Shown here: piece by piece, positions 2,652-20,869 of the stretch
Layout of the letters: every line of letters begins with the position of its first letter
How positions within the stretch are numbered: position 1 is the stretch's first letter
Assembly (NCBI GenBank): GCA_030066985.1
Contig: JASJAN010000026.1
Span: 1-46,598, forward strand
Source: Desulfobacterales bacterium
Lineage (GTDB): Bacteria > Desulfobacterota > Desulfobacteria > Desulfobacterales > JAHEIW01
Length of the DNA: 46,598 nucleotides
Direction: 5' to 3'
Notes under the pieces: generated by a model
What the model was told of the DNA's origin: nothing
The model's input: the letters and a program-made list of their open reading frames with translations, nothing else
Database searches by the model: none
Translations under genes and position numbers: made by a program

Positions 2652-5600
2652 TTGGATATACTGAAAAAGAAAAGCACCAGAATTTTCAAAATTCTTAACA
2701 GCGGAGTACCCGCAGCCTTTCTTTTTGCGACAATCATCCTGCTGATCATAACTGTAACGGCCAATGCAGCCGCGCCTGGTGGAGAATGGTGGGACGGTAA
2801 TTATCAGAGTCGCAAGAAGATTACAATTACAACCGGCGCAACGGGTGCGCCAATAGGATACTCTGTCTCCTTTACCGAGGACACCGCGTCTCTTATCGCC
2901 AGTAGCAAACTTCGATCCGAGGGTAATGATTGGCGTATAGTTTACTGGAATGGTTCGGCATGGGTGGAGCTTGACCGTTGGGTGGATGACATCATAGGTG
3001 ATGGTTGGAACACAGCCAATACAATTACCTGGTTTGAGACTCAGGCTGCGATCGGCGCTACCTCTTCAGATGACAACTATTATGTCTATTACGGATATAC
3101 TGGTGAAACCCAATCTGCGCCAGCATCCATGTCAGACTCCATGGGTGCGGACGCCGCTTCAAAGGTTTTCTGGTATGCAGATGATTTTGAAGAGCATGCC
3201 GCCAGTACAGACCCCGACGGTTGGACCGACCAGGGTACAGAAGATTTTAAAGTCATGCTCCATGGTTCTGAAAAATGGCTCCAGGCCCAAACCTCCGATA
3301 ACTGGGAAGATGGTTCAACAGCTTCCAGTATGGCCAACGTTGGTGATGCGATCTGGAGCGCCAAGCTCTATTACCATCAAGCCGGCACTGGTGGTGAATG
3401 GGGTGGAATCGGTGTTCATATTGGTAATGGCAATGTTGGTTACATTGTAATCGTCATGGATGGTTATTGGTACAGGGCTGATGAAAACTGGGGTGATGCA
3501 ACTGGTTGGCTGGCGAACGCAGATATTCATTTTCCACTGGGGACGAAAGGACGAATTGAACTAGTTACCAGTGGCACCACGCTTGATGCCTATTGGTACA
3601 ATCCTGCGGGTTACAGTCCGGAAAAGGTGACCATATTCACAGGTTTCAACATGCCTGCAGGTACAGGAAAACTGGCTGTTTATATCGAACGTCCCTGGAC
3701 TAACCCCCCTAATGACAGATGGATCGATGCGGATGATGTTATCGTGCGCAGATATGTGAATCCCGAGCCTACCACCAATCTAGGCAGCGAAGAAGCCCCT
3801 GGAGTTGCGTTTACTCAAAGAGATTTTCGCTGGTATGAAAATATCGATGCCCTTCAACCGACCAATCCTTTAGCGGGTGAAAACAGCACGGCAACCATTT
3901 CTACTACAACCGACCCGGTTCGTCTCCGTATGAATGTAACGGTCTCTGATTTTGATTTGGTTGGTTCTTCGCAAGATTTTAAACTGCAATATGCCACCAA
4001 CACCGTCGGTCCCTGGACAGATGTTGGAACCGGCGAAGGCACCCTTATTTTAGCCAATCCGAATATCCAAGTCATCGATCAGCTAACCGGACTGTCGGGC
4101 ACAACGCCTACAGCTATAGAATTGGTAGGATTCAGGTTGAGCACGACGAGTGCAACCTCCACGGTATCCGAGATCGCTGTCAATCTATCCTACTCGGGCA
4201 TTGTGGATGGAGATGTCAATAATTTCCGGCTTTACAAAGATTCAGGCACCATCGGCACCTATGAGTCTGGTACAGACATTCTGGTGGACACGGTGGCTGG
4301 CAATCCTATCAGCGGTGCGGTGACATTTTCCTCTTTAAGTGAGTCCATCGGCATCAGCCCAAGCCATTATTTGATCATCTATGATTATGCTAATGGGCTC
4401 TCGGCCAGCGACCAAATAACAGCAGGTATTGGCACTGCTGATATTACCACGACAGCCTCAGCCAAATCCGGAAATCTCACCAACGAACCGACCCATACGG
4501 CTTCTACTGCTGCTGGATCTGTAAGTTACACTGAGGTTACTTCCGGAGCTAATTTAGGAACAAGCCCAGGCGGTGGCGGTATCGTATTCTTTGATGGCAA
4601 CAATGACGGCTATTTAGATGTGGCTTTGAATGACGATGTCTATACCACCACAATTGTAAGGCTCAGACAAAATAACGGCAATAATACGTTTACGGATCGT
4701 GATGCCCAAATAACCCTGACAGACCTCGGTAGAGGTCTTGGTTCAGGAGATTTTAATAATGACGGCTGGGAAGATATTGTCTGGGGTTATGGGGTCGAGC
4801 TCCAAGTCAACTCCGGACAACCGAATATTACGTTTACTTTAGCCACTCCTCCTGAAAATAATGACGAAGCGTTGATGTTTGCGGACATAGATGGTGATGG
4901 TGATTTGGACATATGGAACCCTGGGCAAAGTTTTCTCTGGCAGAGAAATGATGGAGGAACCACATTCGTGGGCCAGACAACTATGCCCGGTAACGTGGGA
5001 TCGACTGCCAACGGTGAAGGCGCCACGGCTGCGGATATCAATAACGATGGCCATATCGATTTTTTGTGGGCGAATTCCACGAGCACCTGCGAGGCGTATA
5101 CGAATAATGGAAATTATACTTATACGCTTGATAGTGATGTAAACATTGATTCTGGGCCGGGAGATATCTCCGGCTTACCAATGAATGTCGGAGATCATGA
5201 AAACATGGAGTGGGCCTGGGGCGATTGTGACAATGACGGAGATTTGGATGTTTTCATATCAGGGGCTGACAACGAGGGACTGTATATAAATGACGGGGAC
5301 GGTGACTTTACCAACGAAGGCGCTGCAAGGGGGGTGTCGGGCTTCAACGATCCAATTGGGGCAGACTGGGGTGATGTTGACAACGACGGCGATTTGGATT
5401 TGATCATTGCACTGAATGGCGTCGCCTCCCGTCTCTATATCAACGATGGTACGGGTAGTTTCACGGACGATGCGGTTGGCGCTGGTATTGGAACCATCGG
5501 TGACCTCGGTAAAACGGTTGGTTTCTTTGACTCAGAAAATGATGGGGACCTTGATATTCTGGTTAATGATCCAACCAAACTCTGGCGCAACGCTCTTAAT

Positions 5601-8600
5601 GACCTAAACAGTGGTAGCTATTTAAGGGTTATCGTAAAAGGAAAAGGAGGACCGAACTTCGCTCCGATTACGCCAATCGGAGCACAAATTGATGTATTTG
5701 AGACGGGCACCAGTAATCTCGTCGGTCACAGGGAAATATTCGCATCGTTTAACCAGCTGCAGCCGCCCAAGTGGCAACATTTTGGTCTGCCTGCTTCATC
5801 CGGCGGCGGAAGCGGGGCCTATGATGTTACGGTCACATTTCCAAGCAGTGGCACTGTCGTTACCCGATCCGGTGTGGTTCCTGCTAATGAGTCCATCCAA
5901 ATTGGTGCGACAAATCTAAATCAGACCATTGAAATTCATGAAGGCGAACTCGGCTTGGCCAATCCAACTTCTCAGGTTGTCAATCAACTGGGTGGAGAAG
6001 CAGGCAACACCCCCACTGAAGTGGAATTAGTGGGACTGAAATTGAACACGTTTACGGGCACGGCCGCAGTTTCTCAGATAGTGGTCAATCTTTCCTACAC
6101 AGGAATCGTGGACGCTGACGTGAATAACTTCCGGCTTTACCAGGACCTTGGAACCATTGGCACCTATGAGTCCGGCATTGACACCCTGGTCGCAACGGTG
6201 GCCGGCAACCCCACCAGCGGTACGGTGACATTTGACGGTCTAAGCGAATCCATCGGCACCGCGGCAAATCATTACCTGTGTATTTATGATGTTGTAAATC
6301 CGCTCGCTGCCGATGATCAGATTACGGCCTCCGTTGGCCCCTCCGATATTACCTCTGCGGCTGCACTTATATCCGGCGATTTGACCGATGAGCCGACCCA
6401 TACGGCAGTAAACGTCGGTGTCTGGCAGTTCTACGATAACGGTTCTGTTGCAAACGGGGCTACGATTACCTCTACTCTTCTTTCTGCGTCCGATGTAAAT
6501 GAGTCCTATGGCGAAAGTAATCCCACGGCCTCGAATCCCAATGGTATCACAGTGGGCCAGGAGGGTGAATGGGATTATGCCCTGGATCCCGCAAATATCA
6601 GCAATACTAGCTATTATTTCCGCATGGTGGAATCAGACGGGACACCTTTCAATTCATATGCAAATTATCCAACTATTGATGCCACCGGCACCGGCGTCTT
6701 TCAATACAGAAAATCGATTACCATTCCTGCGGCGAACCTGAGTGGAAATTGTTCGGCCGACCTGGATGATTTCCCCCTTCTCATCAGCATCACGGACCCT
6801 GACCTTCGAGACAAGGTTAGGGGCGATGGCTATGACATTGTCTTTAGGTGGGATGACGGTACCTGCGGAGGAAGTTCGTGTCAAGGCTTGTACCATGAGA
6901 TTGAACAGTGGAACAGTTCAACAGGAGAGTTAATCGTCTGGGTGAGAATTCCTACGCTATCTGAATCGTCAGATACAACTATTTATATGTACTACGGGAA
7001 CCCCTTCGTCGATGTGCCCACTGAAGACCCGGCAGAGGTCTGGGATGCCAATTACGTGGGTGTCTGGCATTTGCATGAGAGTCCCAACGACGGTGTGGCT
7101 GGACACGTGGATTCAACAGGTAACCTCAATGTTGGCACACCACAGAACTTCCAGGACGGTGGTGGAGGCTCCACCAATGCGACTGGAAAAATAGGTGGGG
7201 CAGACTATTTTGCTGGCGACGATGATCTTGTAGATTGCGGTAATAATGGCATTCTCAATGTCAACTATCTCACGATTGAGCTCTGGATCAATATTAATAG
7301 CTGGGTGAGTGATGGCGGCATTCTGGCAAAAGGTGATAACGCCTACAGGCAATACTGGATGTGGACTTATGATAGTGCCGGGGCATTTGAAGTTGATGAA
7401 GGCGGCCATCACAATCATGGTTGGGATTTTCCTGCTGGAGAGTGGGTACATCTATCCATGACCTATAACGGGTCGAATGTCATTACATACAGAAATGGCG
7501 TACAGGAGAATACTTATCCTCAAACAACCGGCATCATCGACAGCCAGACACCGAATTTGTTTTTCGGATACATCCCGAGCTTCAATTATTTTGACGGCAG
7601 CCTGGACGAAGTTCGCATCACCAATGGAGTGCGAGATCTCTGCTGGATTCAAACCTCTTTCGCCAACCAGAACAATCCGGGCGATATCGGCAGCCCCGGA
7701 TTTTACACCATCGGCGGTGAGGAAGGCAACCCGGCGACGTCTGTCTCGTTGATTTCCTTTTCGGCTGCAGGCGACGGCAATGCGGTTAACGTGGCATGGC
7801 AGACCGCACGTGAGTTTGACAACGTGGGCTTTCACCTGTACCGCGCGCAAGCTGCGGGCGGACCCTACACACGCATAACCGACAAGCTCATATCGGCCAA
7901 TCCGCAGCAGAGCAGAGGGGGCTACTACAGCTATCTGGATGCCAATGTCAGTGTTGGGCAGCTGTATTACTATAAGCTTGAAGACATCGATGTGTTTGGC
8001 AAGCATACGCTGCACGGGCCGGTGTGTGTGGACTGGGATGCGGACGGCATGCACGATGACTGGGAGATTAGCCATGGCCTTAGTCCCTGGATCAATGATG
8101 CGAATATCGACTCTGACGGTGACGGGCTGACCAACTTAGAAGAATATGAGCGCGGCACCGACCCGTTTAACCCCGACAGCGACGGTGACGGGATCTTGGA
8201 TGGCGATGAAGATGGCCGCATCGAACGCTCAGAAGATAACGGTGCGCGCCAACTGACCCGCGGCATCGAGGTGCTTTCCGAAGATGAGAGCGGCATGACC
8301 CTGGAGCTGATCACCACAGCTTTTAACGCTGAAGTGGTCACAGCGGGCAGCGAAGAGTTTGAACAGCTGTCGATTGCCGAATACGTGCATGGGTTTACAT
8401 CCGAGCTTGGTACCCCGCAGCTGCCGCTAAGAGGCATGCTGATCAATGTGCCAGAAGGTAGGGTGGCGCAGTTGACGGTGTTGAGCAACACCGTTGAGCC
8501 CCATTACGGTTACCGCGTCTATCCGGTGCCCCAGGACGTACTCGACGTTCAGGGTGCAGCTTCAGCAGTGGGCCAGGAGTTTGTGCAGGATCAAACCGCT

Positions 8601-11600
8601 TACAACGTGGACCAGTTTTATCCACAGGCAGTAGCCGAACTGGGCCAAAGCTATGTGCTGCGCGAGCAGATCAAACAACAGGTCATCTTTTATCCGCTAA
8701 GCTTTAATGCCGCCAGCGGTCAGCTTAATTTTTACCGGCGCATTAAAGTGCGCATTGATTTTATCGATGCCCATTATGCCCATTTAGAAAGCTTAACCAA
8801 TCAGCCCTGGCAGCCGCCCAAAGCCACCGCGGCTTTGATGGCACCAATTGCCGTTGGGTTGGCCGCTTGTCCCTTGCTGGCCAACCCCATCAGCCCGCTG
8901 CTCTCATCGCTGGGCGCAGCGATTGCTGCGGTGTGGAGCCCGCCGCAAGGCGACGGCTCTGCGGTTTACAAGATTGTCACTTCTGCCGAGGGCATTTATC
9001 GTATTGAGCGCGCCTGGCTGCTGGCACAAGGCCTTGATGCAAGCGAGGTCGATGACATCGATCTTGACCAGGTGCGCCTGTTTAACCGCGGCGAGGAAGT
9101 GGCGGTCTACGTTGAAGATCAGGCAACAGCGGGCCAGCTGGATGCCGGCGATTACATCGAGTTTTACGCTGTTGACCTTACCGCAGCTGAGACCAAATAC
9201 AGCACCGAAAATGTCTACTGGCTGACGCCAAGCGGCGGGGCGGGGCTGCCCAAACGCATGGGGGCCATCGATGCCGCACCTACCGGTGGCGGTCTGCTGT
9301 CAGATGATTTTGACCATACCGCACACCATGAACTTAATCAGGCCTACTGGATCAAAGCGCCCGGCGCTGATGACATCGAGCGCTGGTTTTTTAACTCCTA
9401 TGTGCAGGGCGATGAGCACGGCGGCGGGGGGCTGCCGGTGCCCTTTACCATCAGCGTGCCGGCTCCGGTCGGCAGCGGCACCTTAAAGATATCGATGGCT
9501 GGACAAACCACTACCGACCATGTGGTTGAAGTGGTGATCAACGGTGAGTCACAGATCATTAACTGGAGTGATATTGCCTACACCGAGGCCATATTAACCG
9601 ATGTGCCCTTAAACCCGGGTGATAATACGGTTACTTTGCAGTGTCTAAGCGCAGACGGCAACGACTCGGTTATCGTGGATTTTTTTGAGATCAGCTACCG
9701 GCGCGATTATGTTGCCGGCGCTGACGATACCTTAAAATTTGCCCCTGACGCCGGTGATCTTTATTTGATTGAAGACTTTACCAGCAACAGCCTGCTGGCC
9801 TATGACATCAGCGACCCCACCGATGTGGCCATTTTAGAAAACGGGGTGATCAGCGGTGCCGGCCCCTATGACATCGAGCTTGAGCCCGCCAGCCCCGGTG
9901 ATAGCTACCTGGTGGCGGCAGCTGCGGCGATTAACAACCCGGATCGGCTGGCAGTTGAGCGCACCTCCACGCTGTCTGATACGGCCAATGGGGCCGACTA
10001 TATCCTGATCACCCACCGCGATGTCGGCTGGGACGGCAGCGACCAAAGAGCGTGGCTGGAGGATCTTGTGGCCCTTCGACAGGCTCAGGGCTTTAGAGTG
10101 TTTGTGGCTGATATTGAAGACATCTACGATGAGTTTAACTACGGCATTCAACACCCGGCAGCCCTTAAGGATTTTCTATCCTATGCCTACAGTGATTGGG
10201 AAACGCCCGCACCCGGTTATGTGCTGCTGGTCGGAGACAGCACCTATGATCCCAATAACAACTGGGTGGCTGGCGATACCACACCCTATCTGCCCGCATA
10301 TCTGATCTTTACCGACTTTAAGGGTGAGACAGTTTCCGACAACTGGTTTGTGACCATCAGCGGCGATGATGCAGTGGCTGATATGCACATTGGACGCCTG
10401 CCGGCAGCCGATGACAGCCAGGCTGCCACCATGGTCGATAAGATCATCACCTATGAGAGCAGCCCTAACAGCAAGTTTGTCGACCCGGATGCCTGGGAGA
10501 AAAATATTTTACTGGTCGCAGACGACCAGCGGCCCGGTGAGGACTATGCCTACGAGGCGGTCTTTGAGATTATGAACGACACCGCTGCGGACATGCTGCC
10601 AACCGGCATGGCTGCCCCGGTTAAAGGCTATCTGGCCGATTATGTGGATGAGGACTTTTTAACCGATGATATCATCGATGCCATCAACGACGGGGTGCTG
10701 ATGGTCAACTACTCGGGTCACGGGGCCACCCAGATCTGGGCGGATGAGAACATCTTTAATGCCGGTGATGTGGCTTCTTTGACCAACACCGACAAGCACC
10801 CGTTTTTTGTGTCCATGAGCTGTGAGACCGGTGTGTATACTTACCCCGAACCTTTGGGTTTTGCCTCGCTGGCAGAGGCCATGCTGCGCTCAGATGCCGG
10901 GGCAGTGGCGGCCTTGATGCCCACGGGCATGACCACCACCCCGGGCCAGGAGATTTTAAACAACGCGCTTTTTGAGGCCATCTTTACCGATGATGTGCGC
11001 ACTCTGGGCCCGGCCATCGCAGCAGCCAAACAAACCCTTTTGGCTAACGGTGATGCCTATTATGAGCAGATTGCGGCCACCTTTATGCTGTTTGGCGATC
11101 CGGCCACAACGCTGAAGGTGCCCCTGCCCTACAAACCCAACGATGTGCGCGCCAAACGCAAAGACAAAAAGGTGCGCATTCGCTGGCATGCGGCCACCGA
11201 TTGTGACGGCAACCCGGTAGACGGCTACAACATCTACTGGGCAGCCACCGCAGCAGGGCCCTTTAGTAAGATCAACGTCGATCCGGTCACCGAGCTGGTC
11301 TATTTTGACAGCCAGATGGGGGTGGGCATCGATGCAGGCGGTGGCAGCGGCAGCGGCTATTATGTGGTCAGCTCTGTGGACAGCGCAGGAGATGAAAGTG
11401 TGCAGAGTCTTGCGGTCAGACCCGCAGCCGCGGCTGCTTCAGCCGGCAGCAGTGTGGTGGGGTGTTTTATATCATCCGCTCAAGATACAATGTCGCTCAA
11501 AGCAATGGGGTTGGTTGTACTATCGATTTTGGCCTTATGTATCTGGCGCAAGGCAAAAGGCAAAGGGCGAAAGGAATATAATCCAATAGACCGAAGCGCA

Positions 11601-11612
11601 TCGATTCAGTAA
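2652..11612 (+). CDS. Giant multidomain secreted protein with gingipain-like C25 protease domain and C-terminal GCFI-TM-basic sorting signal
   Basis: The protein has 2,986 residues. The TTG start is chosen because AGGAAA lies 5 bases upstream and a signal peptide follows (basic N terminus, hydrophobic core about 21-38, cleavage near ANA-A). Domains in order: DUF2341 (about 47-130); a bacterial repeat (about 465-617); seven FG-GAP/VCBS repeats with DxDxDGxxD calcium loops (about 640-976), likely a seven-bladed propeller; an ASPIC/UnbV-like domain (about 987-1087); a second copy of the 465-617 repeat (about 1101-1253); a second DUF2341 (about 1350-1480); LamG (about 1530-1680); an FN3-like module (about 1697-1795); thrombospondin type 3 repeats (about 1793-1853); C25 propeptide-like (about 1863-2046); C25 protease (about 2440-2826). 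The catalytic pair is visible as His2690 (NYSGHGA) and Cys2724 (VSMSCETG), spaced as in gingipains. Another FN3-like module follows, then Cys2938 in VVGCFI, a helix at 2951-2965 and a lysine/arginine-rich tail. The role is probably a surface-anchored adhesin or protease; the substrate is unknown. Confidence 0.85.
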   Translation: MDILKKKSTRIFKILNSGVPAAFLFATIILLIITVTANAAAPGGEWWDGNYQSRKKITITTGATGAPIGYSVSFTEDTASLIASSKLRSEGNDWRIVYWNGSAWVELDRWVDDIIGDGWNTANTITWFETQAAIGATSSDDNYYVYYGYTGETQSAPASMSDSMGADAASKVFWYADDFEEHAASTDPDGWTDQGTEDFKVMLHGSEKWLQAQTSDNWEDGSTASSMANVGDAIWSAKLYYHQAGTGGEWGGIGVHIGNGNVGYIVIVMDGYWYRADENWGDATGWLANADIHFPLGTKGRIELVTSGTTLDAYWYNPAGYSPEKVTIFTGFNMPAGTGKLAVYIERPWTNPPNDRWIDADDVIVRRYVNPEPTTNLGSEEAPGVAFTQRDFRWYENIDALQPTNPLAGENSTATISTTTDPVRLRMNVTVSDFDLVGSSQDFKLQYATNTVGPWTDVGTGEGTLILANPNIQVIDQLTGLSGTTPTAIELVGFRLSTTSATSTVSEIAVNLSYSGIVDGDVNNFRLYKDSGTIGTYESGTDILVDTVAGNPISGAVTFSSLSESIGISPSHYLIIYDYANGLSASDQITAGIGTADITTTASAKSGNLTNEPTHTASTAAGSVSYTEVTSGANLGTSPGGGGIVFFDGNNDGYLDVALNDDVYTTTIVRLRQNNGNNTFTDRDAQITLTDLGRGLGSGDFNNDGWEDIVWGYGVELQVNSGQPNITFTLATPPENNDEALMFADIDGDGDLDIWNPGQSFLWQRNDGGTTFVGQTTMPGNVGSTANGEGATAADINNDGHIDFLWANSTSTCEAYTNNGNYTYTLDSDVNIDSGPGDISGLPMNVGDHENMEWAWGDCDNDGDLDVFISGADNEGLYINDGDGDFTNEGAARGVSGFNDPIGADWGDVDNDGDLDLIIALNGVASRLYINDGTGSFTDDAVGAGIGTIGDLGKTVGFFDSENDGDLDILVNDPTKLWRNALNDLNSGSYLRVIVKGKGGPNFAPITPIGAQIDVFETGTSNLVGHREIFASFNQLQPPKWQHFGLPASSGGGSGAYDVTVTFPSSGTVVTRSGVVPANESIQIGATNLNQTIEIHEGELGLANPTSQVVNQLGGEAGNTPTEVELVGLKLNTFTGTAAVSQIVVNLSYTGIVDADVNNFRLYQDLGTIGTYESGIDTLVATVAGNPTSGTVTFDGLSESIGTAANHYLCIYDVVNPLAADDQITASVGPSDITSAAALISGDLTDEPTHTAVNVGVWQFYDNGSVANGATITSTLLSASDVNESYGESNPTASNPNGITVGQEGEWDYALDPANISNTSYYFRMVESDGTPFNSYANYPTIDATGTGVFQYRKSITIPAANLSGNCSADLDDFPLLISITDPDLRDKVRGDGYDIVFRWDDGTCGGSSCQGLYHEIEQWNSSTGELIVWVRIPTLSESSDTTIYMYYGNPFVDVPTEDPAEVWDANYVGVWHLHESPNDGVAGHVDSTGNLNVGTPQNFQDGGGGSTNATGKIGGADYFAGDDDLVDCGNNGILNVNYLTIELWININSWVSDGGILAKGDNAYRQYWMWTYDSAGAFEVDEGGHHNHGWDFPAGEWVHLSMTYNGSNVITYRNGVQENTYPQTTGIIDSQTPNLFFGYIPSFNYFDGSLDEVRITNGVRDLCWIQTSFANQNNPGDIGSPGFYTIGGEEGNPATSVSLISFSAAGDGNAVNVAWQTAREFDNVGFHLYRAQAAGGPYTRITDKLISANPQQSRGGYYSYLDANVSVGQLYYYKLEDIDVFGKHTLHGPVCVDWDADGMHDDWEISHGLSPWINDANIDSDGDGLTNLEEYERGTDPFNPDSDGDGILDGDEDGRIERSEDNGARQLTRGIEVLSEDESGMTLELITTAFNAEVVTAGSEEFEQLSIAEYVHGFTSELGTPQLPLRGMLINVPEGRVAQLTVLSNTVEPHYGYRVYPVPQDVLDVQGAASAVGQEFVQDQTAYNVDQFYPQAVAELGQSYVLREQIKQQVIFYPLSFNAASGQLNFYRRIKVRIDFIDAHYAHLESLTNQPWQPPKATAALMAPIAVGLAACPLLANPISPLLSSLGAAIAAVWSPPQGDGSAVYKIVTSAEGIYRIERAWLLAQGLDASEVDDIDLDQVRLFNRGEEVAVYVEDQATAGQLDAGDYIEFYAVDLTAAETKYSTENVYWLTPSGGAGLPKRMGAIDAAPTGGGLLSDDFDHTAHHELNQAYWIKAPGADDIERWFFNSYVQGDEHGGGGLPVPFTISVPAPVGSGTLKISMAGQTTTDHVVEVVINGESQIINWSDIAYTEAILTDVPLNPGDNTVTLQCLSADGNDSVIVDFFEISYRRDYVAGADDTLKFAPDAGDLYLIEDFTSNSLLAYDISDPTDVAILENGVISGAGPYDIELEPASPGDSYLVAAAAAINNPDRLAVERTSTLSDTANGADYILITHRDVGWDGSDQRAWLEDLVALRQAQGFRVFVADIEDIYDEFNYGIQHPAALKDFLSYAYSDWETPAPGYVLLVGDSTYDPNNNWVAGDTTPYLPAYLIFTDFKGETVSDNWFVTISGDDAVADMHIGRLPAADDSQAATMVDKIITYESSPNSKFVDPDAWEKNILLVADDQRPGEDYAYEAVFEIMNDTAADMLPTGMAAPVKGYLADYVDEDFLTDDIIDAINDGVLMVNYSGHGATQIWADENIFNAGDVASLTNTDKHPFFVSMSCETGVYTYPEPLGFASLAEAMLRSDAGAVAALMPTGMTTTPGQEILNNALFEAIFTDDVRTLGPAIAAAKQTLLANGDAYYEQIAATFMLFGDPATTLKVPLPYKPNDVRAKRKDKKVRIRWHAATDCDGNPVDGYNIYWAATAAGPFSKINVDPVTELVYFDSQMGVGIDAGGGSGSGYYVVSSVDSAGDESVQSLAVRPAAAAASAGSSVVGCFISSAQDTMSLKAMGLVVLSILALCIWRKAKGKGRKEYNPIDRSASIQ

Positions 11613-11668: not shown

Positions 11669-11684
11669 TGGCACACAGTTTGCA
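11669..11684 (+). promoter_or_regulatory. Sigma-54 (RpoN) promoter, perfect consensus
   Basis: TGGCACACAGTTTGCA has the -24 element TGGCAC and the -12 element TTGCA, with exactly 10 bases between the GG and GC doublets. It sits 75 bases ahead of the PqqD-like gene, in the only space between that gene and the giant protein gene. The RiPP-like cassette is therefore probably driven by an enhancer-binding activator. Confidence 0.85.
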
Positions 11685-11758
11685 AAATATCAATTCGTCA
11701 TTTTTGCCTTTAATTGGCTCAATACGGGTGAAATTTTTTTATTTGATATAATTACAAT

Positions 11759-12103
11759 ATGTTAAAAGAAAATGTGAACAGGATAGAGACTATGAACGGA
11801 CTGAATCGGGTGTACCAAAAGAATCAAAATTTTGTCTTTCGTCAAATTGATGATGAAACTCTGCTGGTTCCCATCAAGGATAGTGTCGGTGATATGGGGT
11901 CCATTTACAATTTAAATTCGGTGGCGGCGTTCGTGTGGCAGCATCTGGACGGCCAAAATTCACTAAAGGATATCAAAGGCTTAATTGAAACTGAATTTGA
12001 GGTATCCGGTCCAGTTGCCGAGCAGGATCTGACGGATTTTGTCGCTCAATTAGATAAAATTGACGCTATATTTCAAGAAGCTTCAAATAAGGAGACTGAG
12101 TAA
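11759..12103 (+). CDS. PqqD-family protein (RiPP recognition element)
   Basis: The 114-residue product has the PqqD fold pattern: FRQIDDETLLVPI, a middle SIYNLNSVAAFVWQHLDG segment and a helical region with LKDIKGLIETEFEVS. Members of this family bind the leader peptide of a ribosomally made precursor and present it to modifying enzymes. The stop codon overlaps the start of the next gene (TAATG), and that gene is a 53-residue peptide with a leader-like N terminus, which fits the role closely. A second in-frame ATG at 11792 could be the true start; neither has a strong ribosome binding site. The gene lies 75 bases after a consensus sigma-54 promoter and is the first of a four-gene cassette. 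Confidence 0.85.
   Translation: MLKENVNRIETMNGLNRVYQKNQNFVFRQIDDETLLVPIKDSVGDMGSIYNLNSVAAFVWQHLDGQNSLKDIKGLIETEFEVSGPVAEQDLTDFVAQLDKIDAIFQEASNKETE
12089..12094 (+). promoter_or_regulatory. Strong ribosome binding site of the precursor peptide gene
   Basis: AAGGAG lies 8 bases before the ATG at 12103, inside the end of the PqqD-like gene. It is the best ribosome binding site in the cassette and supports the short peptide ORF as translated, at a higher rate than its neighbours. Confidence 0.75.
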
Positions 12104-12264
12104 TGAAATCAGCTGAAAAAAAAGAATACCAAAAGCCCAAAATAACCCAAATCAAACTGGATGCGGCCTGTGCTGTTTTAGGTTTTTGCAAGACTGGAGG
12201 CAAAATAGGGCCCGGAGCGCCGGGTTGTAGCAGTGGATCGGCATGCGATTCACTTGGTTCCTAA
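12103..12264 (+). CDS. Putative RiPP precursor peptide, 53 residues, four cysteines
   Basis: ATG at 12103 overlaps the PqqD stop by one base and has AAGGAG 8 bases upstream. The product starts MKSAEKKEYQKPKITQIKLD and continues AACAVLGFC, then KTGGKIGPGAPGC, then SSGSACDSLGS. The N terminus is charged and carries Y9-x-x-P12-x-I14, which matches the YxxP-type leader motif bound by recognition elements in lasso systems. The C-terminal half is rich in Gly, Ser and Cys (Cys23, 29, 42, 48), and the last residue is Ser53. I infer a leader of about 20-28 residues and a Cys/Gly-rich core. The next gene is an HPr-kinase-like protein; in the paeninodin lasso system such a kinase phosphorylates the C-terminal Ser of the precursor. 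The class of final product (lasso, thioether, disulfide or other) cannot be decided from sequence. Confidence 0.8.
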   Translation: MKSAEKKEYQKPKITQIKLDAACAVLGFCKTGGKIGPGAPGCSSGSACDSLGS

Positions 12265-12296
12265 TAGCTGTATTATTCAATCGATAAATCTCCCGA

Positions 12297-13151
12297 ATGA
12301 CCAACCATATCAAGATTGAAATAGCCGGTGTGTGTATCGCCATTGAAAGCGAAGGTGGGCTTGACGACTGGGATGTCGATGCCGCTTATCAACCCTTTGT
12401 CTGCGACCAACCGGCAGACATACACCTGCGTCTGCTGCCGGGTAATCCGGCCATCTCCGGCACGGCAAAGGTATTTGACGGTTCACCGATCTGGACCCTC
12501 CATCGTCAAGGAGATAGGACCGCCTTTAAAATTTTTGATCACCTGAACGATCAAAAACGCGTGCTTGTATTGGATCCGGAAATTCGCGCAGTAAAGCTTT
12601 ACTTTCCAAATCCCAACACTGATTTTGTAAATCCCTTTTATGGGCCGACCATCGAACTATTGTTGATCCAATACCTGGCGCGGGAGCGGGCGATGATCGT
12701 GCATGCCTGCGGAATCGATGACGGCGACCGCGGCATGCTGTTTGTCGGTGAATCCGGCGCCGGGAAAAGCACCTTGTCGAATTTATGGTATCAGGGCAGC
12801 GGGGCAGTTTTTAGTGATGATCGCATCATTGTGCGTAAAAATGGCAGCGCCTACTGGATGTACGGCACGCCCTGGCACGGCGAAGCCAGATTCGTATCAG
12901 CGCGCAGTGCCAGATTGACGCAAATCTTTTTCCTGCAGCACGCTCAAGCCAATGAAATACGGCCATTGAACCGGGCCGATACGGTGGTCGAATTTTTGAA
13001 AGTGTCGTTTCCTCCCTTCTGGGATAGCCAGGGGGTTGAATTCGCGATGGCGTTTTTAAGTGATCTGACCGAGACAGTACCGTGTCAGGCACTGTCGTTT
13101 AAGCCTGATATTAGTATCGTTGATTTTATTAAAAGACTTGATCAAGGATAA
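12297..13151 (+). CDS. HPr kinase-like protein of a RiPP cassette
   Basis: The 284-residue protein resembles the C-terminal kinase domain of HprK and its RiPP-associated relatives. The P-loop GESGAGKST is at 151-159, preceded by a conserved VHACGI with His136. DDR at 174-176 and TPWHGEA with His194 follow, as in HprK-related kinases. The N-terminal 130 residues are a beta-rich domain typical of the RiPP-type homologues and differ from the HprK regulatory domain. No HPr or phosphotransferase system gene is nearby, so carbon control is unlikely. The gene begins 32 bases after the precursor peptide. By analogy with lasso clusters the substrate is probably the precursor, with Ser53 the obvious target. 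The start ATG has only a weak ribosome binding site. Confidence 0.82.
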   Translation: MTNHIKIEIAGVCIAIESEGGLDDWDVDAAYQPFVCDQPADIHLRLLPGNPAISGTAKVFDGSPIWTLHRQGDRTAFKIFDHLNDQKRVLVLDPEIRAVKLYFPNPNTDFVNPFYGPTIELLLIQYLARERAMIVHACGIDDGDRGMLFVGESGAGKSTLSNLWYQGSGAVFSDDRIIVRKNGSAYWMYGTPWHGEARFVSARSARLTQIFFLQHAQANEIRPLNRADTVVEFLKVSFPPFWDSQGVEFAMAFLSDLTETVPCQALSFKPDISIVDFIKRLDQG

Positions 13152-13152
13152 T

Positions 13153-13420
13153 TCACCGCAGATTCAAACTGATTTTATTGAACCGGAGATTAATTTATCC
13201 TCAGATTACACAGATTAACGCAGATTAAAATATAAGTTAAAAGATTTTGTCAAATTAGACGTGCAGACACCCTGCGATAAAATATTGTGCTGAACGCACT
13301 CACCATAAAATTGGGATCTGTATTTAGGTAAAAAAATAAATATTGAAATTGCCCGAAAGGCATGAAGTAAATAGCCGCCCAGGTCGGGCGGCTATTTATC
13401 TGCACATGTCTGCGGTTAAA
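13153..13420. repeat. Composite intergenic repeat with CGCAGA-type ends, copy 1
   Basis: The left end has TTCACCGCAGATT and ACACAGATTAACGCAGATTA; the right end has TGTCTGCGGTTAAAAT, the inverse of the left motif. The middle has GCCCGAAAGGCATG. The same order (CGCAGA ends in inverse orientation around a TGCCCGAA-GGCATG core) recurs at 32641-32937. It separates the kinase gene from the nucleotidyltransferase gene. Confidence 0.55.
13369..13397. terminator. Perfect 12-bp hairpin, likely terminator
   Basis: AAATAGCCGCCC (13369-13380) and GGGCGGCTATTT (13386-13397) form a perfect stem with a 5-base loop. The flanking A and T tracts suit termination in both directions. It lies between the kinase gene and the nucleotidyltransferase gene, so the latter may be transcribed by read-through or from its own promoter. 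Confidence 0.7.
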
Positions 13421-13433
13421 ATAAATCATTTTT

Positions 13434-14549
13434 ATGGATTCGATAGAAAATAAAATTTTGCTGGCGGCTGGCCATATTGATCCGGATGCGGATCAGCAGG
13501 CACAGCTCCGTGAGCTGCTGGCCGGGGACTATGATCAGGATCACCTGATTCGCCTGGCGCGCAAAGAAGGCATGTCCGGGCTGCTGTATAAAAGCCTCAA
13601 AAAAGCCGGTATCCTTGGATACCTCGGTCACCGGCAAATGCAGCATTTGCAATCCTTTTATTACCGCAGCGTTCAGCAGAATCTAAACACGATTCATGAG
13701 CTAAAAGAAATATTGCGGCGTTCAAATATAAGCGGGATTCAGGTAGTGCTGCTGCAGGGGATCGCTCTTTTTGAGAAGGTATATAAAGATATCGGATTGC
13801 GGCCGCTGACAGACATCGATCTGTGGGTGCTGCCTGATAGGCGGGAAGCTTTTGACACCCTTATAACGAATTTGGGCTATCAACCGGACCCACTCTATCC
13901 GGGGACCTTCAAAAAAGACCAGACCATCGTTGATATCAACTCGCACATCCTGTGGGCAGAGCGTATCAAAAGCCGGCAAGGTCTTCTGGCAAAAAGCCAG
14001 CATGCGATTCATGATGATATTGATATTCTGCGCTTCGAAGGCCAACCGGCCGGATGTTTGAATGCGGTTGACCAGGTGCTCTATTTGAGCCTGCATGCGT
14101 TTAAGCACTGTGCGAGTCGCTTAATCTGGCTGGTGGATATCAAAGAATTGATCGCAGATTGGCAATGTGCTGATTGGAAAGCGCTGTTTGACCGTGCCGC
14201 GGAACTAGGACAGACTCAGATCGTCTGCGACATGATTTACTTGATAAAGCACCTGTTTCAGCTTAAACTGCCGGAAGAAATTGAACAGATGTTTGCCGAA
14301 CAGGGCTTCACATGGCTGGAACGCTCTATTTTAGCGAGACGCTTGAACGGAAACCACCTGCCGGATTGGGCCCCGCTGTTGTTGTTTACGTCCGGGAAAG
14401 ATTTGAAAACCCGGGTGTGTTTTGTTTTTGAGACCCTGTTTCCGAGACCGGAGATTCTCAGGCAGGTATTTGCAAACTCTGCAAAGTCGAATGTATGGCA
14501 TCTATATTTGAAAAGGTTTTTACAATTGCTCAGCCATGCTAAATTGTAA
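13434..14549 (+). CDS. NTP_transf_5 nucleotidyltransferase-like protein (RiPP-associated)
   Basis: The 371-residue protein matches the uncharacterised nucleotidyltransferase family NTP_transf_5. The core motif is VVLLQGIAL (102-110) followed by GLRPLTDIDLWV, with the metal-binding acidic pair at Asp127 and Asp129. Most relatives have Lys-Gly where this protein has Gln108-Gly109, so one active-site position may be altered. Members often sit in lasso and other RiPP clusters next to an HprK-like kinase and a PqqD-type protein, which is the arrangement here. The chemical role in those clusters is not well established. The gene is 282 bases after the kinase gene and is separated from it by a strong hairpin. 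No clear ribosome binding site precedes the ATG. Confidence 0.8.
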   Translation: MDSIENKILLAAGHIDPDADQQAQLRELLAGDYDQDHLIRLARKEGMSGLLYKSLKKAGILGYLGHRQMQHLQSFYYRSVQQNLNTIHELKEILRRSNISGIQVVLLQGIALFEKVYKDIGLRPLTDIDLWVLPDRREAFDTLITNLGYQPDPLYPGTFKKDQTIVDINSHILWAERIKSRQGLLAKSQHAIHDDIDILRFEGQPAGCLNAVDQVLYLSLHAFKHCASRLIWLVDIKELIADWQCADWKALFDRAAELGQTQIVCDMIYLIKHLFQLKLPEEIEQMFAEQGFTWLERSILARRLNGNHLPDWAPLLLFTSGKDLKTRVCFVFETLFPRPEILRQVFANSAKSNVWHLYLKRFLQLLSHAKL

Positions 14550-14755: not shown

Positions 14756-15994
14756 TCAATTTTGGTTTTGATATGCCAGCCTCTTCTGATCAGGTACTAG
14801 TAATATTTCAACCCTGCGATTCAATGCGCGGCTGGCTTCATTTTCATTAGATGCTGAGCTGACGGTAAACCCAAATCCCTTCGACAGCAGGCGGTCTCCC
14901 TCAATACCTTTTTGCACCAAATACTGTTCCACTGTGCGCGCTCTTTTTTCGGAAAGCGTCTGATTGTATGCTTGCGTACCGATACTATCGGTGTGTCCAT
15001 GGATCTCGGCTTGCGTCATTGGGCTGCGGTTTAGCATTTCAGCCGCCTCATCCAGAGTCGAATAATACTGGGACTTCAATTCAGCGCGATCAAAATCAAA
15101 AAGGACATTTTGGAACTGACCGTCAGTTTTAGCCAAAGCAGCTACAGCGTCTCTTTGATGGCCGTTTATTTTTTGCCGGTTGGCAGCCTGGGCCAGGTTT
15201 GAACGCCTGGCACAGCCGTCCATACCCACTTCTGCACCTGCAGGCGTGTCCATACACAGATCAGCATAGTCGGGAATTCCGTCACCATCCCCATCGGCTT
15301 CAGAAAGCGCCGTACCGCCAAATGTTTTTAGGATCATTTTGGGGGCGTTAAATTGGATGCTCTTTACACGGGTTCTGTCCACGGTTATTTCGGAAACTGA
15401 TTCCGGGGCTACTCGAAATTGATCTTGCTTCAAGATGCCAGTGATCAGATCACCGTTTTCGAGTAATATTTCAGTGCCATCCTGGTAGTTATCTGCAAAT
15501 TCAAGCCGGTTGATATTTTTTGGCTGAATTGTCTTGGTGATAAAATTGGCACGGATCTCCAAAGATGTATCCAAGAATTTACCGGAAAAGCGATCGTTGT
15601 TTTTCATGGTAATGATAGTGGTCGTTGCCTGTCGGCTTTGTGCTCTGAACTCTCGCCATATACGCGTTATCCTGCCTTTATCTATTGTTCGTTTCCTGCC
15701 GTCTTTCTGTATAAATTGAACGTTTGCATTCAACAGGCGTCCACTAAACTGATCATTGTTGACGGTTTCGATAATCCATTGACCGGCGGCCCCATCTTTA
15801 AAATCAATGCTTTTTAAAAATTCCGTTTTAATACGAATGTTTCCATAGGGGGTTTGCACCGTGAAAGCGGGATTCTGAATGATGCCCACTAATCTGTCCT
15901 CGTCTTTGACGTACACGATATCTGCCTGACCGACAGCCGGGCATAAAAATGCAATGGCGATCAGGATGATTAAAATGTTTTCGATTTTATTCAT
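14756..15994 (-). CDS. OmpA-family outer-membrane protein
   Basis: The 412-residue protein has a signal peptide (hydrophobic core about 7-20, cleavage near GQA-D at 23/24). Three to four weak repeats of about 60 residues of the type NNDRFSGKFL / NGDLITGILK follow. They end in a thrombospondin type 3 motif (ADGDGDGIPDYADLC, about 233-247) and a TPAGAEVGMDGC sequence. The last 110 residues are an OmpA peptidoglycan-binding domain with LFDFDRAELKS, IHGHTDSIGTQAYNQTLSEKRA and NRRVEILL. The protein probably ties the outer membrane to peptidoglycan; the repeat region's function is unknown. GGAGG lies 8 bases before the ATG. The upstream region holds two copies of the large palindromic repeat. Confidence 0.9.
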   Translation of the reverse strand: MNKIENILIILIAIAFLCPAVGQADIVYVKDEDRLVGIIQNPAFTVQTPYGNIRIKTEFLKSIDFKDGAAGQWIIETVNNDQFSGRLLNANVQFIQKDGRKRTIDKGRITRIWREFRAQSRQATTTIITMKNNDRFSGKFLDTSLEIRANFITKTIQPKNINRLEFADNYQDGTEILLENGDLITGILKQDQFRVAPESVSEITVDRTRVKSIQFNAPKMILKTFGGTALSEADGDGDGIPDYADLCMDTPAGAEVGMDGCARRSNLAQAANRQKINGHQRDAVAALAKTDGQFQNVLFDFDRAELKSQYYSTLDEAAEMLNRSPMTQAEIHGHTDSIGTQAYNQTLSEKRARTVEQYLVQKGIEGDRLLSKGFGFTVSSASNENEASRALNRRVEILLVPDQKRLAYQNQN

Positions 15995-16570: not shown

Positions 16571-17221
16571 CTAAATCATCAGGGCGAGGGTGAAGATGGC
16601 CAGGTTGCCCAGGCAATGAATGGTTATCGGCACAAGAAGGTTTTTCTCGACTTCATATGCAATGGCAAACACAAGACCGCCGATGAGTTGGGTTACGGGT
16701 ATGATGCTGCCGGATGCGTGGGTGTGCGGCAGTACAAAGAGTAAGGTGCTCAAAATGATGGCAGTTGGGATTCCCCATCTTCTAAAAAAAGTGTAGAAGA
16801 TGCCACGAAAAAATATCTCCTCTGCTATGGGCCCGATCAAAACGCCCACCAGGAAAAAAGCTGCTAGCTGTTTGCTTTCAGACGGCAGCGGCATCTGGAA
16901 AAGCCCGCTCACTCGAATGCCGACCAGATGCATGGCCAGCAAAACAATCCCTGCGGCTGCGCCAAATAATAGCGACCAGATCAATCCCTTTTTTAAACCC
17001 TCAAAAATACGCGATGATGCCAATCCGACGGCTGCCAGGCTTTTTTCTCGCAGCATAATAATGATAAACAAAAAAATGATTTCGGCTACACGGGCCAGAC
17101 CCAGGGCAGTCATATGGGCAAGAATGTTCTGGCTGATGAGTAGCCGCGCCCCAAACTCGACAGCAACGACAGCGACCAGGGCGGCTATGACGGTACTTAT
17201 TTTAATTTTACTTGCCTCCAT
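16571..17221 (-). CDS. CPBP-family glutamic intramembrane protease
   Basis: The 216-residue protein is almost entirely membrane-spanning, with about six to seven hydrophobic segments. All three catalytic motifs of the CPBP (Abi/CAAX-protease-like) family are present: EExxxR as Glu134-Glu135 and Arg139 in GPIAEEIFFRG, FxxxH as Phe162-His166 in FVLPH, and HxxxN as His202-Asn206 in HCLGN. It should therefore be an active integral membrane protease. Its start overlaps the end of the upstream HEAT-repeat gene by 25 bases, which suggests translational coupling. Some CPBP proteases are the processing enzymes for C-terminal surface-anchor signals (myxosortase type). The giant C25 protein ending 5 kb away carries a signal of that general form, so this is a candidate partner. 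Immunity or prenyl-protease-like functions are alternatives. Confidence 0.85.
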   Translation of the reverse strand: MEASKIKISTVIAALVAVVAVEFGARLLISQNILAHMTALGLARVAEIIFLFIIIMLREKSLAAVGLASSRIFEGLKKGLIWSLLFGAAAGIVLLAMHLVGIRVSGLFQMPLPSESKQLAAFFLVGVLIGPIAEEIFFRGIFYTFFRRWGIPTAIILSTLLFVLPHTHASGSIIPVTQLIGGLVFAIAYEVEKNLLVPITIHCLGNLAIFTLALMI

Positions 17222-18690
17222 CCGAGTGAACGCAATGCTTTATAGGCATACCATTGGGTGTACCAGTTATCTGATGTGGTGATGACTTGCATAATGTCAT
17301 CAATCTCGTCTTGGCCGCCCCTTTTGCCCGTGGCGTAAATTGCCATTGTACGGACATTTGGGTGCGGGTCATTTAAAAAAAGCAGCAAATCGTTGTATGT
17401 GGCTGGACTCTTGGAATTACCCAGGGTCCTTACCAACCAATAGCGCTCGGCAATCTGAGTGCTTATAAGTAATTCGGGGTAGGATATAAACTGGTTTATT
17501 TCCAAATTATTTTTATCGATGATTTTTAAGGCGCCCACACGCGTTTGCCAGTTTTTTGAGCTTAAGGCCTCGTGCAGGTTTGTGGCGGAAACATTGCGGC
17601 CTCTGCTAAATTGAAAGGTAAAAAACATGATAACGCAGACAGCAAAACATAACCCTGAAGCGATTAATGCCGCCTTTCTTGCATTCAAAAAAAAACCGGC
17701 GACAATGCTGATCAACCCGTGCGCGATGACGTAAACCGCAAGCGGGAAGGCGAACAATAAAGAAATGAAAGTCATCTGTCTCAGGATATTGTCGGTATCA
17801 CTTTGCTTCTCGAATTCTCTAATTGCTTTGTTCGGATCTGCGAAGAACGCCTTAGAAGATAACTGCATAACGGGATTGCCGCGGCTTTCCAAATGGAGTG
17901 AATCAGATGTTGCTGTAATTTTAAGATCAACATCATTGGTGTCCTCAACCGGAATGTAGTCATAGTTAAGCAGAATGCTGTTCAGGGCGCTGCCGGTAAC
18001 GTCTGCATTTGTCTCAACCATACCGGTTTTGAGCATTTTCTGATCGAGGGATTTAAAAACTTCTGCGGGGTAGAGGGTGTATCTATAGTAAAAGTCATTA
18101 ATACGGGCGCCGATCGGGTTGGATAATAAATAAATATCACGAAAATCCGTAAACATGCGGCTATCGATTTGCCAGCTGAGCAACAACCCCAGAACGATGA
18201 TGGGCAGGATGTGGATCATGTCAGTTGGGGCTTTGCCTTGCCGGCTCAAGTGTGCCAGACACTTGGAGACAAATGCAAACACGGTCGGCGGCACCAATAG
18301 TGCAATGAGGGTTAAAAAAAGGTTGAAACCATAAATGTTCAGAATAGCCAAGCCAACTGGCCAAAGCAGCAAACATGCATAGAGGAAATATTTGCTGCGG
18401 GAAAATATGCGGTTCCAGATCCAGGCCATTGCCAACGTGAAAAAGGATATGCCGGCACCGATGCTGAAAGTGAAAAAAAGACCACCACATAAAGCCGGCC
18501 TCAAATCCTGCAGGCTGCTCATGACGTCTGCATGGGGTATGGTCAGATAACCGGCTTTTTTAATTGCCAGTAAATTATCATACAGGGCTGCATTGGAGAT
18601 ATACACCTGCACTGATGCCAGAATCTGCGTCAGGATCAGTCCGATCAACAAAGCAAAAAACGGGTATAGGGTTGTCAGTTTCTCTCGCAT
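17197..18690 (-). CDS. Polytopic membrane protein with C-terminal HEAT-type repeats
   Basis: The 497-residue protein has an N-terminal membrane helix (about 10-28), further helices at about 70-185, a soluble loop of about 100 residues, then two more helices (about 305-365). The C-terminal 130 residues look like HEAT or PBS-lyase-type alpha repeats, with DPHPNVRTMAIYATGKRG, NWQTRVGALKIIDKNN and WYTQWYAYKALRSLGWR. I chose the ATG at 18690; a TTG two codons upstream (18696) has a better-spaced GGAAA. It is translationally coupled to the CPBP protease gene. The pairing suggests that the HEAT domain recruits or regulates a client of the protease. I do not recognise a named family. Confidence 0.75.
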   Translation of the reverse strand: MREKLTTLYPFFALLIGLILTQILASVQVYISNAALYDNLLAIKKAGYLTIPHADVMSSLQDLRPALCGGLFFTFSIGAGISFFTLAMAWIWNRIFSRSKYFLYACLLLWPVGLAILNIYGFNLFLTLIALLVPPTVFAFVSKCLAHLSRQGKAPTDMIHILPIIVLGLLLSWQIDSRMFTDFRDIYLLSNPIGARINDFYYRYTLYPAEVFKSLDQKMLKTGMVETNADVTGSALNSILLNYDYIPVEDTNDVDLKITATSDSLHLESRGNPVMQLSSKAFFADPNKAIREFEKQSDTDNILRQMTFISLLFAFPLAVYVIAHGLISIVAGFFLNARKAALIASGLCFAVCVIMFFTFQFSRGRNVSATNLHEALSSKNWQTRVGALKIIDKNNLEINQFISYPELLISTQIAERYWLVRTLGNSKSPATYNDLLLFLNDPHPNVRTMAIYATGKRGGQDEIDDIMQVITTSDNWYTQWYAYKALRSLGWRQVKLK

Positions 18691-18700
18691 AACCAATCAG

Positions 18701-19318: not shown

Positions 19319-20014
19319 TTGATCGTTGCCATTCACCAGCCCCAATATCTGCCCTGGCTCGGGTATTTTGATAAGATGAATAGGGCAGATGTGTTCTGCT
19401 ATCTGAATGATGTCCAGTATAAAAAAAGCGAGTGGCAAAATCGAAACCGAATTAAAACCGCTCAAGGCTGGCAATGGCTGACAGTGCCGGTGCGCTATCA
19501 TTTTCCGGATAAAATCAACGAGGTCCCGATCAACCATACGACCGGCTGGCAGAAAAAGCACCTGCAGGCGCTGATCACCAATTACAGCCGCGCGCCCTTT
19601 TTTAAATCCTACGGTGATATTTTCGAAGATACTTTTTCCAGGGAATGGGAGTTTATTTCCGAACTCAATATCCATTTGCTGGAGCGGCTGAGAAAAGCAT
19701 TAAACATGGATGCAAAACAGACAGTGGTTTCATCGGAGCTGGACCTAAGGGAAGAACCCACCGATCGGCTCATCGATATTTGCAAGGCTGTTGGCGCGGA
19801 CACCTATCTAGCAGGAGAGGGCGGTGCCAATTATATGGACCTGGAGCGGTTTGCCCAAAATGGGATTAATGTTATCACCCAGAACTTTAAACATCCCGTT
19901 TATCCGCAAATGTTCGCTGAATTTGAGTCGCACCTGTCGATTGTGGATTTGCTGTTTAATTGCGGACCTGAAAGTCTCGAAGTGATTAAAAGAGCTAATG
20001 AAGGCTCGTCTTAA
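19319..20014 (+). CDS. WbqC-family protein
   Basis: The 231-residue protein has the WbqC signature at its very N terminus (IHQPQYLPWLGYFDKM, His6), then FCYLNDVQYKKSEWQNRNRIK and the C-terminal PVYPQ segment. The TTG start at 19319 is forced, because the next in-frame Met lies inside the signature; AGGAC is about 8 bases upstream. WbqC proteins occur in O-antigen and capsule loci and are thought to act in amide or acyl decoration of sugars. The exact reaction is not established from this sequence. The gene is followed by a PIG-L deacetylase and a DegT aminotransferase, a frequent grouping for making or trimming amino sugars. Confidence 0.92.
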   Translation: MIVAIHQPQYLPWLGYFDKMNRADVFCYLNDVQYKKSEWQNRNRIKTAQGWQWLTVPVRYHFPDKINEVPINHTTGWQKKHLQALITNYSRAPFFKSYGDIFEDTFSREWEFISELNIHLLERLRKALNMDAKQTVVSSELDLREEPTDRLIDICKAVGADTYLAGEGGANYMDLERFAQNGINVITQNFKHPVYPQMFAEFESHLSIVDLLFNCGPESLEVIKRANEGSS

Positions 20015-20022
20015 GTTGACAT

Positions 20023-20126
20023 GGAGTAATGGAGTACTGGAGTGCTGGAGTGCTGAATGAGTTGAACAAATGTGGTTCAAAACTTCTTCATACCATTACT
20101 CCATTACTCCAACACTCCATCACTCC
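20023..20126. repeat. Inverted repeat of GGAGTAATGG-type short units
   Basis: The left arm is a run of ATGGAGTAATGGAGTACTGG and related 9-base units (20023-20057). The right arm is the inverse run ACCATTACTCCATTACTCC and related units (20092-20126). The arms flank a 34-base spacer. It can form a long hairpin between the WbqC and PIG-L genes and may attenuate transcription. Confidence 0.75.
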
Positions 20127-20200
20127 GGCAACAATTTTGAGCAAGCATTCTTTGATTTGTATCATGATAAGAAAAACTTGAATGCATTTGAAGGGGAGCC

Positions 20201-20824
20201 ATGCAAAAAGCAACCATTCTGGCAATTGGTGCGCATCCGGACGATATTGAATTCGGCTGCGGTGGAACGCTAATTAAATATACCGAGGGAGGTCATCGCC
20301 TATTTTTGCATATTATGACCAAAGGCGGCTCAGGCGCGGATTCTGCCACTCGGGCCGAAGAGCAGGAAGCATCCAAAGCCATATTGGGTGCAGAGGATAT
20401 TTTCTGGGGCGGGTATGAGGATACACACCTGCAGGTGGATATTGAGTTGATTGGCAAGATCGAAGCGGTTATCAAAAAAATCAAGCCGGATTTTATTTTT
20501 TGCCATTATCCGGATGATACCCACCAGGACCACCGCCATCTGACCCAGGCCGTCATGTCAGCCACTCGGTACATTCGCAACGTCCTATTTTTTGAAGGTC
20601 CCACCACTCAAAACTTCAAGCCCCATGTATTTGTGGATATCGCCGATACCCTCGACAAAAAAATCAAAGCGCTCCAGGCACATCGATCCCAGGTAATGAA
20701 AACCAATATCGAAGATTTGTCCATTGTTGAGGTCGCCCGTTCGAGCGCCAATTTTCGCGGTATCCAGGGCAGGGTTAAATTTGCAGAAGCATTCCATAGC
20801 CTACGCCTTTTTATTAATATTTAA
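20201..20824 (+). CDS. PIG-L/LmbE-family N-deacetylase
   Basis: The 207-residue protein carries the zinc-binding motif AHPDD at 11-15 (His12, Asp14, Asp15) and the second motif PDDTHQDH with His108 and His111. Family members remove acetyl groups from N-acetylglucosamine-type sugars on lipid or nucleotide carriers. The length is normal for the family. AGGGGAG lies about 5 bases upstream of the ATG. With WbqC before it and a sugar aminotransferase after it, the likely substrate is an amino sugar of the envelope polysaccharide. It is probably cytoplasmic, as no signal peptide is visible. Confidence 0.93.
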   Translation: MQKATILAIGAHPDDIEFGCGGTLIKYTEGGHRLFLHIMTKGGSGADSATRAEEQEASKAILGAEDIFWGGYEDTHLQVDIELIGKIEAVIKKIKPDFIFCHYPDDTHQDHRHLTQAVMSATRYIRNVLFFEGPTTQNFKPHVFVDIADTLDKKIKALQAHRSQVMKTNIEDLSIVEVARSSANFRGIQGRVKFAEAFHSLRLFINI

Positions 20825-20869
20825 AAGAGCTTACCAATTTCTTGTGGCAAAATATGTTTAATTATTAAT

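Follow-up and report, generated by a model that had tools for sequence, protein, structure and literature searches.

What can be made by a gene cassette that encodes a leader-binding protein, a cysteine-rich peptide and two tailoring enzymes, with no visible enzyme to modify the peptide core? The question is raised by a 46,598-nt stretch of DNA from a Desulfobacterales bacterium (hereafter the window), in which a preliminary description had placed a cassette for a ribosomally synthesized and post-translationally modified peptide (RiPP) consisting of a PqqD-type protein, a four-cysteine precursor, an HprK-like kinase and an NTP_transf_5 protein. Our analysis indicates that the cassette is probably the precursor and tailoring half of a radical S-adenosylmethionine (rSAM) RiPP pathway, with a product phosphorylated at its C-terminus and perhaps capped with a sugar. 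The window is a complete contig (C26 of its genome), and the absence of enzymes upstream is valid only as far as the contig end.

Domain matches and coordinates recovered all four genes in the window, and the cassette is real. The PqqD-like RiPP recognition protein (11759..12103, + strand; PF05402, E = 1.3e-13) is conserved in a genome of the same genus (G002), whose frame begins at the equivalent of 11792, the more likely start. Its TAA stop overlaps by one base the ATG of the precursor gene (12103..12264, +), and AAGGAG, a probable ribosome-binding site, lies 8 bases before that ATG (12089..12094, +); both details, given in the preliminary description, were read again in the sequence. The 53-residue precursor contains the leader motif Y9xxP12xI14 (12127..12144, +) and a probable core with Cys23, Cys29, Cys42, Cys48 and the C-terminal Ser53 (12169..12261, +); the motif and the four cysteines are as originally noted. 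The HprK/PEPCK-fold kinase (12297..13151, +) and the nucleotidyltransferase-family NTP_transf_5 protein (13434..14549, +; PF14907, E = 7.6e-43) follow. An inverted repeat, AAATAGCCGCCC..GGGCGGCTATTT at 13369-13399, lies in the 282-base gap between them and is either a terminator or a repeat. The window thus holds a RiPP recognition element (RRE), an HprK-like kinase and an NTP_transf_5 protein, the tailoring set of some lasso peptide clusters. A second PqqD of the same genome (contig C33) was dropped, as no RiPP neighbours were seen among the frames of its 16-kb stretch.

The peptide appears to be under selection as a protein, given a dN/dS of 0.10 against G002, at a dS of 1.98 that is near saturation; the corresponding values are 0.17 for PqqD, 0.14 for the kinase and 0.16 for NTP_transf_5. 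Gene order in G002 is identical, its peptide has 58 residues, and the two peptides share 70% identity over 53 codons. A profile built from three peptides (those of the window's own genome, G000, of G002 and of G034) was searched in 389 genomes of the order and yielded three further clear members (E = 1.8e-26, 3.7e-19 and 7.3e-17). The close form (E < 1e-16) therefore occurs in 6 of 389 genomes: G000, G002, G034, G183, G211 and G189. In the own genome there was a single peptide match at E <= 1, with no second precursor of the family at that threshold. The preliminary description had pointed to loss of the peptide from loci that keep the flanking genes as evidence against it; the frame is kept without stops in G002, G034, G183, G211 and G189. 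G079 is a result against it, as kinase, NTP_transf_5, OmpA, CPBP and HEAT genes are kept there, and PqqD and peptide were not found on the 8-kb contig, which starts just before them. In G034 (DYEU01000015.1, Desulfatibacillum sp. Tomsk_70_44), PqqD and peptide are fused in frame into 161 residues with the core LDAxCAVLGFCK...C...C...GS. This natural fusion ties the two together; it is known from one genome, and an assembly error is possible.

The window's peptide belongs to a much wider family, which has members among relatives of Desulfobacterales, Acidobacteria, Nitrospirae and methanogens and is normally located beside an rSAM gene and a kinase gene. An iterated profile without a near-stop filter recovered 94 frames, 71 of them distinct by their last 45 residues. 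The last residue was Ser in 67, Thr in 2, Ile in 1 and Pro in 1, the Pro-ending frame being the weakest match (E = 0.02) and devoid of Cys; one further Ser-ending member, from loci fetched later, is outside this count. In a filtered set of 60, limited to matches that extend nearly to the stop codon, 59 end in Ser; the hydroxyl residue at the C-terminus is thus nearly invariant, while Ser accounts for 7% of the other positions in the last 45 residues of this set. For the filtered precursors, Y/WxxP was present in 59 of 59, and the number of cysteines was three in 49 of 60 and four in 11. By alignment, Cys29, Cys42 and Cys48 of the window are the family's three; Cys23 is found only in the window's clade, G211 excepted. 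None of the seven precursors tested scored above the cut-off of any NCBIfam model; one had a sub-threshold match to the StsA sactipeptide model (17.6 of 42 bits).

Where, then, is the rSAM enzyme? G034 carries on a single contig, in order, genes for a glycosyltransferase, an ATP-binding cassette (ABC) transporter, an rSAM protein, an S26-type protein, a C25 protein, the PqqD-peptide fusion, the kinase, NTP_transf_5, CPBP and HEAT. The rSAM beside this cassette was searched in eight genomes. Close homologues were found in G000, G183, G189 and G211 (E = 1.5e-134 to 9.0e-116), each off the peptide contig; in G002 and G079 no match was better than E = 9e-21, save a short 51% identical piece at a G079 contig end. 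In the own genome the clade rSAM lies on C62, a 6,676-base contig that, read backwards, encodes a glycosyltransferase, an ABC exporter, the rSAM, a 23S-IVP-like protein, a signal-peptidase-like protein (S24/S26-type) and two proteins that we take to be pilins, FimT-like and PilW-like, the latter cut by the contig end. The C62 rSAM matches PF04055 (E = 1.1e-21), and its C31xxxC35xxC38 motif and further C-terminal cysteines are invariant in five aligned rows; no NCBIfam cut-off was reached among the 25 best of 54 models. The features that broadly define an rSAM/SPASM RiPP system, a CxxxCxxC motif and SPASM-type cysteines together with an RRE and a precursor, are thus all found in this genome, with the rSAM on C62, outside the window.

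This clade of rSAM is closely tied to the precursor family. The rSAM alignment, scanned once over 84,980 species genomes, gave 77 loci. Among homologues of at least 50% identity, 18 of 22 loci hold a family precursor right after the rSAM (one of them cut by a contig end), in 16 Acidobacteria, 1 Planctomycetes and 1 Methylomirabilis; the remaining four (L149, L150, L161 and L166) are without it. Co-occurrence was assessed in 65 loci, 64 with a precursor and 63 after removal of L173, a repeat of L035. The partners in these 63 were PqqD (61), kinase (60), rSAM (58), S26-type protein (44), C25 protein (32), NTP_transf_5 (15) and an ABC match (12), counts that are not unbiased frequencies, with kinase, peptide and rSAM as baits and many stretches short. 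In the three loci without a kinase the precursor sits at a contig end. An rSAM is absent from the stretch in five loci, those of the window, G002, G183, G211 and G189; apart from G002, each of these genomes carries the clade rSAM on another contig. A Fisher test of peptide against rSAM over the 389 genomes (p = 1.7e-9) was not relied on; it is partly circular, because the five rSAM rows had been drawn from genomes with the peptide and the bit limit was set after the fact.

Gene order suggests that C62 likely lies just upstream of the window. The window begins with a PilY1 gene whose 5' end is cut off by the contig end (1..1841, +), a possible continuation of the C62 pilin genes. In JAFDCJ010000364.1 an rSAM 77% identical to that of C62 over the 217 residues present is followed by a short gene, an S26-type gene, four genes that we read as pilin-type and one for a 1900-aa protein that we read as PilY1-like, 28% identical to the window's PilY1 over 259 residues. 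In G211 and G147, the genes for glycosyltransferase, ABC transporter, rSAM and S26-type protein run directly into NTP_transf_5, OmpA, CPBP and HEAT, the block found 3' of the kinase in the window. The peptide cassette and the C62 genes may therefore be one locus split by assembly, and the enzymes reported missing were probably lost from sight at a contig end. Of the two options in the preliminary description, enzymes acting in trans or a product of a new type, the former is in effect correct, as an rSAM/SPASM protein, an ABC exporter and a signal-peptidase-like protein are all encoded on C62. Its statement that no rSAM, exporter or protease was nearby stands for the rSAM within the window; upstream it is valid only to the contig end, and it overlooks a C25 protease gene that adjoins PqqD on that side.

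The kinase has GESGAGKST at residues 151-159, as described earlier, and SDD at 173-175. His136, Gly151, Lys157, Ser158, Asp174 and Asp175 have the same spacing as H148, G163, K169, S170, D186 and D187, listed as important for BsfK (PMC10368454). The AlphaFold model (pLDDT 91.4) matches the PEPCK/HprK superfamily, with Z = 13.1 and an rmsd of 5.0 over 238 residues against PEPCK, and TMt 0.53 and TMq 0.33 against HprK/P 1jb1; all 50 VIA matches listed were PEPCK, and HprK appeared in the Foldseek list. A sequence search of the kinase against PDB gave only matches with E of at least 0.15. In lasso systems the C-terminal Ser is phosphorylated by homologues of the kinase, and for pseudomycoidin the nucleotidyltransferase attaches hexoses to that phosphate (PMC8498205).

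On this lasso precedent both tailoring steps are proposed here: the kinase would act on the C-terminal Ser and the NTP_transf_5 protein would cap the resulting phosphate. Before that, PqqD would bind the Y-x-x-P-x-I leader, as the family and the natural fusion suggest, and the C62 rSAM/SPASM enzyme would modify the Cys-rich core, most likely with thioether bonds at Cys. Export could be through the ABC exporter of C62, and removal of the leader or trimming of the product may fall to either the signal-peptidase-like protein or the C25 protease. The reading first put forward, of a RiPP cassette whose leader is bound by PqqD and whose tailoring enzymes are of the lasso type, is supported.

Several observations weigh against this rSAM pathway. 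Between C62 and the window there is no exact overlap and no common 19-mer. PilY1 pieces are also found at the ends of contigs C8 and C48; these look like each other's partners, because the PilY1 ends are 95% identical over 109 residues. In the AlphaFold model of the G034 fusion the leader is not docked on PqqD, and the peptide has pLDDT blocks of 45-64. Because kinase, peptide or rSAM served as bait in collecting the loci, the co-occurrence counts are raised. The kinase alone does not fix the site: BsfK, helped by its PqqD-type partner, phosphorylates Ser3 of a precursor ending in Asp (PMC10368454), and the candidate precursors of loci L018 and L019 lack a terminal Ser. At these two loci kinase relatives stand beside rSAM-like frames and repeat-rich GxxC candidates, which looks like another undescribed peptide type. 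Finally, G147 and G093 have the clade rSAM without a detected close-form peptide, and G002 has the peptide with no clade rSAM found. In G211 the 103-kb peptide contig extends at least 15 kb to either side of the peptide, no rSAM was found in that stretch, and the rSAM is on a 65-kb contig; G211 thus shows that peptide and rSAM can be truly apart.

The arrangements in G002 and G211, with the off-contig rSAM of the window, G183 and G189, would also fit a minimal rSAM-free RiPP, in which a phospho- or glycophospho-peptide would need no enzymes beyond PqqD, kinase and NTP_transf_5, and the C62 rSAM would have another role. We consider this unlikely, given that four of the five such genomes carry an rSAM of the clade that so regularly precedes a family precursor, and that no other precursor of the family was found in the own genome. 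The state of the assemblies also speaks against it: in G183 and G189 the peptide contig measures only some 5 kb, G002 comes in 440 contigs with a completeness of 91%, and the 9.9-Mb bin of G211 has 9% contamination.

A second alternative concerns the C25 protein, a probably exported protein of 2986 aa with Propeptide_C25 and Peptidase_C25 domains (E = 6.7e-86 for the latter), encoded on the same strand and ending just upstream of PqqD (2652..11612, +). The rSAM-modified, C-terminally phosphorylated peptide might be a substrate, inhibitor or prosthetic group of this PorU/gingipain-like neighbour. This would fit the C25 homologues of the 32 loci, which lie upstream where the gene order is that of the window and downstream in Acidobacteria, and the match of the window's C25 region to the PorU sortase model (E = 8.2e-73; 245.6 of 420 bits); the other 31 of 63 loci have no C25 homologue in the stretch, some being cut by a contig end, and no direct link was found, so we regard a target-bound peptide as improbable. 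C25 motif patterns matched for Cys in 8 of 35 proteins, a pattern that was too strict, and for His in 28 of 35; no claim of activity is drawn from them. Equally speculative is a new RiPP class, spanning bacteria and archaea, whose rSAM-crosslinked peptide would bear a phosphate or sugar-phosphate at the C-terminal Ser/Thr and would be trimmed by the exported C25 protein or joined by it to the cell surface via the capped C-terminus.

A degenerate lasso locus of the paeninodin kind would account for the tailoring set and for TbiB1, which we take to be a lasso protein, as the best PDB sequence match of the window's PqqD (E = 3.8e-4), and is nonetheless very improbable, since the precursor family travels with rSAM and a search of the genome found neither a B2-type peptidase (Transglut_core3; one sub-cut-off match, on C43) nor a cyclase with the precursor (Asn_synthase, PF00733; matches on C8, full length, C20 and C22, none on C26 or C62).

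Compared with known systems, the rSAM pathway proposed here shares with lasso clusters that have a kinase and a nucleotidyltransferase (paeninodin, pseudomycoidin and the bsf cluster) the discrete PqqD-type RRE, the YxxP leader and both enzymes, and with paeninodin the C-terminal Ser on the precursor beside an HprK-like kinase. It differs in having an rSAM/SPASM protein in place of lasso cyclase and B2 peptidase, and three to four core cysteines. SynChlorMet (Scm; NCBIfam TIGR04248-04251) likewise combines PqqD, an HprK-like protein and rSAM/SPASM proteins, and the Scm-like two-rSAM methanogen loci L177-L179 have related precursors (EESVLFVCK, EEHVLAGCK and EEAVLTACK; L177 reads KESVLFVCK). 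However, the window and C62 proteins, with one rSAM rather than two, fall far below the ScmC, ScmD, ScmE and ScmF equivalog cut-offs (30.7 of 100, 23.9 of 125, 75.4 and 63.1 of 400), none of which was exceeded. An open-access text search returned no paper under the SynChlorMet name. Locus L081 (G190:C64) has both cassette types side by side: C25, PqqD, rSAM, precursor and kinase come first, then an rSAM that passes the cut-off for ScmE (E = 1.6e-124), another PqqD-like frame and one more rSAM. Sactipeptides and ranthipeptides resemble the system in their SPASM-type rSAM, Cys-rich precursor and RRE, but none of their models reached its cut-off in the matches listed, and to our knowledge their pathways do not include kinase, NTP_transf_5 or C25 partners.

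The C25 protein also recalls myxosortase/CFI-box sorting, as a neighbour of the cassette and not the cassette itself. It ends in GCFISS, a transmembrane (TM) segment and a basic tail, and a CPBP (Rce1-like) intramembrane protease encoded nearby (16571..17221, −) is closest to MrtJ/MrtS, at scores below their cut-offs. G034 has both, with a GCFLD tail, and the other C25 proteins compared mostly stop at the C25 domain. The two window proteins are possibly an unnamed myxosortase-type sorting pair. The OmpA-domain gene to the right of NTP_transf_5 (14756..15994, −) keeps its order in G079, G211 and G147, and a HEAT-repeat membrane protein gene (17197..18696, −) belongs to the same block by domain search and gene order in relatives. 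Further on, 19319-31907 holds WbqC, PIG-L, DegT, GT4, XrtA-type ATPase, export and chain-length genes, an exosortase-type polysaccharide locus with XrtA models below cut-off; similar genes adjoin the rSAM block of G211. At 41028-42674 a B12-binding rSAM protein is encoded beside mutY, with all 16 listed families below cut-off and no relation to the cassette seen.

Peptides made with an rSAM and an RRE are of a known kind; the open-access papers searched do not seem to describe them in combination with C25 proteins and tailoring of the lasso type. The precursor family was likewise not found in that literature, including passages of PMC8498205, PMC10368454, PMC4289311 and PMC9902471, and the search returned nothing on a RiPP family paired with giant C25 proteases. 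What looked like an odd orphan cassette is one member of a large, widespread and apparently unnamed precursor family, one linked to giant C25 proteases, and its locus illustrates how a contig end can make a pathway appear enzyme-free. If the kinase does phosphorylate the C-terminal Ser, the kinase and nucleotidyltransferase tailoring known from lasso peptides would also serve radical SAM peptides, in bacteria and in methanogens.

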